Assembly (NCBI RefSeq): GCF_023634065.1
Contig: NZ_JALKCV010000006.1
Location: 124,001-188,000 of the forward strand
DNA length: 64,000 nucleotides
Source of the DNA: Microbulbifer litoralis
GTDB taxonomy: Bacteria > Pseudomonadota > Gammaproteobacteria > Pseudomonadales > Cellvibrionaceae
Reading direction: 5' to 3'
The translations under genes and the position numbers were made by a program. The number at the start of each line of letters is the position of its first letter. Positions within the stretch are counted from its first letter, which is position 1. The notes under the pieces were generated by a model. That model did not search any database and was not told the DNA's origin. It saw nothing but the letters and a program-made list of their open reading frames with translations. Positions 23,722-24,538 of the stretch are shown here, piece by piece.

Positions 23722-23885
23722 CTAGTGGTCCATGCGGAAAGTTGTGTAACTGTTCGCGTCGCCAAAGCGCCCAGCTCTGCGTTGAGAAAGCTTGAAATAG
23801 AACCACTATTCCTGCGCTTTCTCGCCTTGATCTGAACACTTTGGCTGTGCTCCTTAGTCACCAAACTTTCCGCATGGACCACTAG
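23722..23885. mobile_element. MITE-like element, 164 bp with 22-bp perfect terminal inverted repeats
   Basis: The left end CTAGTGGTCCATGCGGAAAG.. (23722-23743) is repeated in perfect inverse orientation at 23864-23885. Both ends finish in CTAG; if CTAG is the target duplication, the inverted repeat proper is 18 bp starting TGGTCCATGC. The interior is partly self-complementary (GAGAAAGC/GCTTTCTC and AATAG/CTATT around 23784-23823) and has no transposase. The right end supplies the TAG stop codon of the gene at 23882-24538. Size, ends and CTAG target fit a non-autonomous element, perhaps moved by an IS5-type transposase; that family link is inference. Confidence 0.8.
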
Positions 23886-24538
23886 CGCATGCAGCGCTCG
23901 TATTCGTCGCTGTAACTGCCCGGCTGGCGGCGATAGGGACCCACCCTGGCGCGGCGCGACTGGTCGTCGGCAATGCGACGGCAGGTGGATCGGCGCTCCT
24001 CATAACTTTCATCGCGAATATTGTCGCGGAAACCGTAGCGACCGTAGTAGCCGCCGCCGGGATAGCTGCCGTAGTAGTCGCTGCGGTAAGCCCCGCCCCC
24101 CGGCTCGGCGCGGTATCCGGGCTCTGCCCGGGGATAGGCTCGGGGAATTGCCCGGGGCTGTTCGGGCGCCGCGAGCGATTGCAGTTCCGGCGACCCGCGG
24201 TAGTAATCCCGCCAGCCGGGAGGCGGTGAGACAACCGAATAGTCGCCGCCGCGGGGATCGTACAGGAAGAAGGAACCGCTGCCGGTCACGACATAGCGAT
24301 CGCCGCCGATGGTGAAGCTGCCGGCATCGCCGGGTACATCGGGTACCCGCGCGCCCAGTGGCGGATCCACGCGCAGGTAACCTCTGCCGTCGGGGCGGTA
24401 AAAGGCGCCGCCCGAATAGTAGTAGGTTTCACCGCGCACGAGCAGTTGCGAGGCACCGGCGGGCAGGGCGCCCGTCCGTTCCTGGGCCCAGGTCAAGGAG
24501 ACTGCGAGGCCGAGCAGGAGTGCAATGGCGTAATGCAT
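23882..24538 (-). CDS. Secreted DUF6515-like Gly/Tyr-rich protein
   Basis: A protein of 218 aa with a Sec signal peptide (ALLLGLAVSLTWAQ). It has a conserved-looking segment LLVRGETYYYSGGAFYRPDG followed by RVDPPLGARVPDVPG, as in DUF6515-type envelope proteins, then YVVTGSGSFFLYDP. The C-terminal third is low-complexity, rich in Arg, Tyr, Gly and Pro (YYGSYPGGGYYGRYG). Two Cys near the end (RSTCRRIADDQSRRAR, EYERCMR) match those of its neighbour at 24711-25091, so the two are paralogues. Its stop codon lies inside the end of the MITE-like element, so its last residues may have been altered by insertion. Function unknown. Confidence 0.75.
   Translation of the reverse strand: MHYAIALLLGLAVSLTWAQERTGALPAGASQLLVRGETYYYSGGAFYRPDGRGYLRVDPPLGARVPDVPGDAGSFTIGGDRYVVTGSGSFFLYDPRGGDYSVVSPPPGWRDYYRGSPELQSLAAPEQPRAIPRAYPRAEPGYRAEPGGGAYRSDYYGSYPGGGYYGRYGFRDNIRDESYEERRSTCRRIADDQSRRARVGPYRRQPGSYSDEYERCMR

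Follow-up and report, generated by a model that had tools for sequence, protein, structure and literature searches.

A small mobile element of Microbulbifer litoralis that probably inserts within CTAG and regenerates the stop codons of host genes

When a mobile element ends exactly on the stop codon of a gene, has it created the end of that gene, or has it landed on a stop codon that was already there? This question is raised by a 64,000-nucleotide stretch of the Microbulbifer litoralis genome (contig NZ_JALKCV010000006.1), referred to here as the window, in which a 164 bp element occupies positions 23722 to 23885. A reading made from the sequence only had described it as MITE-like, had placed the TAG stop codon of a neighboring gene in its right tip, and had suggested that the element either landed at the end of that gene or gave rise to it. 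Reading of the minus-strand ORF confirmed this position: the gene at 23882 to 24538 (minus strand) has its TAG at 23882 to 23884, within the right CTAG tip, and its protein matched PF20125 (DUF6515) with an E value of 1.1e-11. The explanation that we regard as very probable in its entirety is that the element is a MITE mobilized by an IS630-type transposase, and that its insertion at the TA of CTAG regenerates host stop codons.

The 164 bp element and its copies

The left terminal inverted repeat (23722 to 23743, plus strand) opens with a CTAG tip at 23722 to 23725, and the right one (23864 to 23885, minus strand) closes with a CTAG tip at 23882 to 23885. Comparison of the ends bore out the perfect 22 bp repeats of the sequence-only reading: the two ends pair without mismatch when one is reverse-complemented, up to base 22, and differ at base 23. 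The G at 23725 is probably the first base of the element proper, after a duplicated TA. No ORF of at least 20 aa lay wholly within the 164 bp, in agreement with the claimed lack of coding capacity; five ORFs of at least that size overlapped the element and extended past its limits. The interior had been called partly self-complementary, and the single strand (164 bases, DNA parameters) indeed folded far better than shuffled sequences (z score of -7.7, with none of 200 shuffles as good). CTAG was depleted about nine-fold in the window (13 occurrences against a shuffle mean of 122). An RNA family was considered for the element and rejected, as Rfam returned no match with an E value of 1 or lower covering it; the sole match, M23, was below threshold and lay in another part of the stretch.

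A whole-genome search located the element at at least 43 places (80 rows, many of them self-complement, with 40 of 87 candidates scored), and BLAST on the stretches fetched around these and around additional end matches gave 51 distinct places, one of them an IS and the other 50 copies of the element. Of these 50 copies, five measure less than 120 bp, two of the five being cut by contig ends. Three places, the window copy included, were 100% identical over all 164 bases. A palindrome that arose by chance would not recur in this way, with three fully identical copies among 51 distinct places. The window copy belongs to subfamily A, whose ends read CTAGTGGTCCATGCGGAAAGTT; subfamily B has the ends CTAGTGGGCCGCTCGCAAAGTT and CTAGTGGGCCGCTTGTAAAGTT, and A and B stood in tandem with one common CTAG in three pairs. 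Matches, some of them to the ends only, were present in 21 of 58 genomes (that of M. litoralis, those of 19 congeners, and one non-Microbulbifer genome that matched weakly), and exact end matches in the named genome collection came from four stretches, all of them Microbulbifer. Thus, the element has further copies in its own genome and in congeners, and it does not stand at the same site in all relatives (see below); a single copy shared by all relatives had been named as the outcome that would speak against a transposon. It is non-coding and multi-copy, with the anatomy of a non-autonomous transposon, as first proposed.

A diverged copy was found on a conjugative plasmid of Shewanella sp. 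ANA-3 (NC_008573.1; L237:1474-1630), with 72% identity over query bases 28-162. This copy separates the type I restriction genes hsdS and hsdR. Inspected by eye, it has ATAG as its left tip, in which the stop codon of hsdS lies, and an altered right tip.

Other repeats were also noted. A second MITE family (C) also has CTAG tips, with the ends CCCGGATATTTCACCAGG (for example, L040:2557-2880, L050:9678-9927, and L216-L227). Its members are mostly 248 or 322 bp long, it gave 38 end matches in the genome at up to three mismatches, and it adjoins an A or B element in four places. No sufficiently distant end pair that could mark an autonomous partner was seen among these 38 matches. Two of 12 family C copies stood at stop codons, compared with two of 33 free sites, which was not significant. 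In addition, a repeat of about 70 bp that is present more than twenty times in one relative (G016, 26 rows) matched the joined query at about 1820-1891 (contig C13 of M. litoralis, near 28 kb).

Stop codons at the element tips

In M. litoralis, where the stretches analyzed make up about one fifth of the draft genome, 15 of the 50 copies held the TAG stop codon of an adjacent gene in a tip. These copies ended 18 genes, with two convergent genes ended by the same copy at C11:37514, C14:54291, and C6:75110. Element-free CTAG sites from the same stretches as the copies served as the background: 159 sites in 917 kb, of which 101 were intergenic, 41 lay within genes, and 17 were at stop codons, and none ended two genes. 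The difference (15 of 50 against 17 of 159) gave a Fisher p of 0.0026, with genes called by a codon-usage script written for this analysis rather than by standard annotation. In the relatives, sampled as 40 loci chosen from matches in 13 of them, 10 of 42 fetched copies were at stop codons (11 genes, as one copy ends two), and the free CTAG sites there were so placed in 2 of 77 cases (p = 4.9e-4), where a copy was counted within 2 bases of the projected tip and a background site only when exact. Pooled, 25 of 92 copies and 19 of 236 free sites were at stop codons (p = 1.8e-5), the copies being partly dependent (tandem pairs, possible shared insertions among relatives). Double stops occurred in 4 of 92 copies and in 0 of 236 free sites (p = 0.006), and the p values with within-gene sites left out were 0.017 and 0.005. 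The contact of this element family with stop codons is systematic.

Such contact could also arise if the element truncated longer genes and thereby created their stop codons, the tip being physically the stop codon. To distinguish the two, the element and one TA were removed from each site, and the implied empty-site codon was read from TA and the base that follows the far tip. In all 17 assessable genes this codon was an in-frame TAG; the eighteenth stop-site gene, on C22, is cut by a contig end. For three of the assessable genes, the base so read belongs to a neighboring element that adjoins the far tip (a tandem A/B element at C1:37841 and C13:56158, and family C at C12:115259). Because the implied codon is TAG in every assessable gene, we favor the interpretation that the element regenerates an existing stop codon instead of making one. 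As the element would start with G after TA, and TA plus G reads TAG, the stop codon would be preserved from either side.

Where orthologues gave local matches (13 of the 18 stop-site genes), the best one stopped within two residues for 10 genes, the window gene included. The best orthologue of the gene at C11:111114 runs 16 residues further, and three other matches agree with the gene end; two left genes, at C11:37514 and C14:54291, have a best orthologue that ends nine residues away. The closest orthologues that are longer, by nine residues for the left gene of C14:54291 and by 16 for C11:111114, are what truncation would predict. However, the in-frame TAG left by removal of the element and the agreement in 10 of 13 genes argue against it, as does the expectation that random insertion would lead to read-in in two of three frames. 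Called genes ended inside only two of the M. litoralis copies, compared with 18 in a tip, and we consider truncation extremely unlikely. These two copies are C1:93443-93606 (L057) and C8:94336-94497 (L055), into which a called neighboring gene runs for about 80 bp and about 24 bp, respectively; the extensions are possibly fusion tails rather than regenerated stop codons.

The window gene itself was compared by BLAST with 13 loci of relatives that carry the orthologous gene end, and the element was absent from all of them. Two element-free orthologues stop where the window gene does, to the residue: that of L068 with a stop in CTAG, and that of G016 with TGA, with about 24 adjacent bases missing besides the element; no locus among the 13 was close enough to serve as an exact empty site displaying the duplication. 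Because the implied empty-site codon is TAG and the element-free relatives L068 and G016 end at the same residue, the first half of the earlier alternative, insertion at the gene end, is favored over the second, creation of that end. Most likely, the DUF6515 gene already had a TAG stop codon before the element arrived. If TA is what was duplicated, its present stop codon would be composed of the terminal base of the element and the duplicated TA.

The element might instead be a fixed 3'-end device, that is, a formerly mobile terminator or mRNA-stabilizing hairpin that is now selected by the host. The strong hairpin potential (DNA parameters) and the excess of copies at stop codons are consistent with such a role, and so is the convergent-gene setting, which applies to 12 of the 48 M. 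litoralis copies with two called neighbors and to 97 of 573 intergenic gaps (raw counts). Yet 35 of the 50 copies lie away from stop codons, the 13 orthologous loci of the window gene do without the element, identical copies indicate recent spread, and no Rfam match at an E value of 1 or lower fell on the element. We therefore judge a host-selected device to be unlikely and retain the reading of a mobile MITE that regenerates stop codons.

Target site and probable partner transposase

The tips were analyzed in the 78 two-ended copies among the 92 places, 14 being left out. CTAG was present on the left in 60 and on the right in 62 of the 78, and where it stands on both sides, duplication of TA and duplication of CTAG are indistinguishable. 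At the outer base, 15 departures from C/G were counted, and at the inner base four from G/C (p = 0.02, a weak test); among the 63 copies that keep TA at the left and the right tip, the corresponding numbers were 12 and 3 (p = 0.035, also a weak test). One copy reads TTAG...CTAA (L186). Since the outer base departs more often than the inner one, the tips favor, but do not prove, duplication of TA within a preferred CTAG over a 4 bp duplication. Filled and empty sites were sought for 13 of the 15 stop-site copies in eight relatives; the gene ends aligned, and no exact pair was found.

A single PF13358 (DDE_3) match was present in the genome, to an intact transposase of 357 aa, for which the NCBIfam IS630 model gave 272.4 bits, well above its cut-off of 100. 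Its residues D175, D258, and E294 stand at the positions expected from the DDE motif, and no PDB sequence matched it at an E value of 0.01. The transposase is encoded by an IS630 element at C1:329939-331086, 1148 bp from tip to tip, with the ends CTAGTGGTCCATGCGGAAAATAGTGTAAC and CTAGTGGGCCATGCGG; its gene ends with an internal TAA of its own. In comparison with subfamily A, the left end of the IS was 93% identical across 30 bp (E value 4e-9) and its right end 83% identical across 29 bp; the genome thus contains an IS with matching ends, for which the sequence-only reading had proposed a search. Subfamily B shares about 10 end bases with the IS and no more. Descent of the MITE interior from this IS was also considered and rejected, because the interior gave no match to it past the ends.

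IS630-like matches were present in 8 of 48 Microbulbifer genomes, that of M. litoralis counted. The IS630 relatives in G014, G010, G016, G062, G004, and G036 carry one or both IS ends, and neither end was seen in the IS630-like stretch of G006. In G014 and G004, left-type and right-type ends are paired 124-126 bp apart and look like internal-deletion derivatives. In three relatives, 46 bp palindrome-like units (L209:994-1039, L210:939-984, and L211:950-995) are built from a pair of element ends set back to back and carry TAG at either tip.

Judging from these end matches, the mobilizing partner is likely an IS630-like transposase. The sequence-only reading had instead suggested mobilization by an IS5-type transposase, which would go with a 4 bp duplication of CTAG or YTAR. 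CTAG at both tips would fit such a duplication, and a 4-nt CTAG or YTAA duplication is reported for the tentatively IS5-related MITEPsy1 (PMC3189936). However, a search of the whole genome with PF01609, the one IS5 profile used, gave no matches, whereas the same search was positive in 9 of 14 control genomes. The sole transposase found with matching ends, within this choice of profiles, belongs to the IS630 family, and tips such as TTAG...CTAA (L186) differ in their 4-mer between the two sides. With PF01609 as the profile covered, the IS5 attribution was judged very unlikely.

For the IS630-mobilized MITE, the following sequence of events is proposed. A Tc1/mariner-like DDE transposase of the IS630 family would act in trans, cutting into CTAG at its TA, linking this TA to the two ends of the element (GTGG...CCAC), and duplicating it. 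With G as the first base of the element and C as the last, a copy that lands on the TA of a stop codon, be it TAG or TAA, would leave TAG on the gene side, on either strand, and the palindromic target would give the same regeneration for a gene arriving from the opposite side. Insertions at stop codons would leave the protein unchanged and so persist. We infer that mobilization occurs in trans by the IS630 transposase, that TA rather than CTAG is duplicated, and that the excess at stop codons probably arose because silent insertions survived and not through active targeting.

Known systems and implications

IS630 itself is said to prefer CTAG, as Tenzen and Ohtsubo reportedly found in 1991, and the target of IS870, according to what Fournier et al. 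are said to have described in 1993, supplies the stop codon of its own transposase. Like these two, ISY100 and ISPpu2 belong to the IS630 family with its DDE_3 transposase, the type carried by the partner IS in M. litoralis; the window element differs from the family members in being a 164 bp non-coding derivative. It also differs from IS870 in that the MITE would rebuild the stop codons of host genes, whereas IS870 completes that of its own transposase. The four plasmid IS630 relatives that we compared have CTAGTG...CACTAG ends in three cases, one of them annotated as IS870-family, and one end only in the fourth. The IS870-family transposase is 47.5% identical to the 357-aa protein, its element has the ends CTAGTGG...CCACTAG, and its own stop codon is the tip TAG. 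On a Pseudomonas luteola plasmid (NZ_CP044084.1; L235), an IS630-family element seems, by eye, to interrupt a terminator-like inverted repeat, in whose loop it lies at a CTAG. For ISY100, duplication of TA has been reported (PMC2170065).

Among short repeats of other bacteria, RUP of Streptococcus pneumoniae works in a similar way, as a small MITE with ends like those of IS630-Spn1 and a TA target (PMC2229807). It resembles the present element in size class and in its tie to IS630, but it has another sequence and another host than the Microbulbifer element, and the available text of PMC2229807 says nothing of stop codons in host genes being rebuilt by RUP. Pneumococcal BOX repeats encode the stop codon of 36 CDSs, with no strong evidence of truncation; they are linked to ISSpn2, and a CTAG geometry is not described in the accessible part of that source (PMC3049150). 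MITEPsy1 of Pseudomonas syringae, a 100 bp MITE inserted at CTAG or YTAA, differs in its end sequence, its 4-nt duplication, and its tentative assignment to IS5 (PMC3189936). REP/BIME sequences are 20-40 bp palindromic repeats with a GTAG tag (PMC3733652) and have been linked to RAYT (PMC2817692). No description of IS630 MITEs that rebuild host stop codons was found in the literature covered, a collection that leaves most subscription papers outside, and the terms sought on such rebuilding were absent from a review of MITEs (PMC10969869). The CTAG preference of IS630, the stop codon of IS870, and the stop codons in BOX repeats were known already, and a two-sided, quantified regeneration of stop codons was not found described.

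A further reading goes beyond the survival of silent insertions. Stop codons might be a real niche in which the element accumulates as 3'-end punctuation, single copies ending two convergent genes included, and its ends and target may have been selected together. In this niche reading, which we put forward tentatively and hold to be doubtful rather than probable, the healing of stop codons on both strands at once would follow from the TA-in-CTAG target, the ends with G first and C last, and the scarcity of CTAG within genes.

The combination of a transposon's target site and its terminal base can render an insertion silent for the protein. About a quarter of the examined copies (25 of 92) are on stop codons, slightly more than three times the rate at free CTAG sites (19 of 236). 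For annotation, genes ending in such elements should not be labeled as truncated. The same geometry predicts which TA-duplicating elements, namely those with G or A as the first base, can use stop codons as safe sites.
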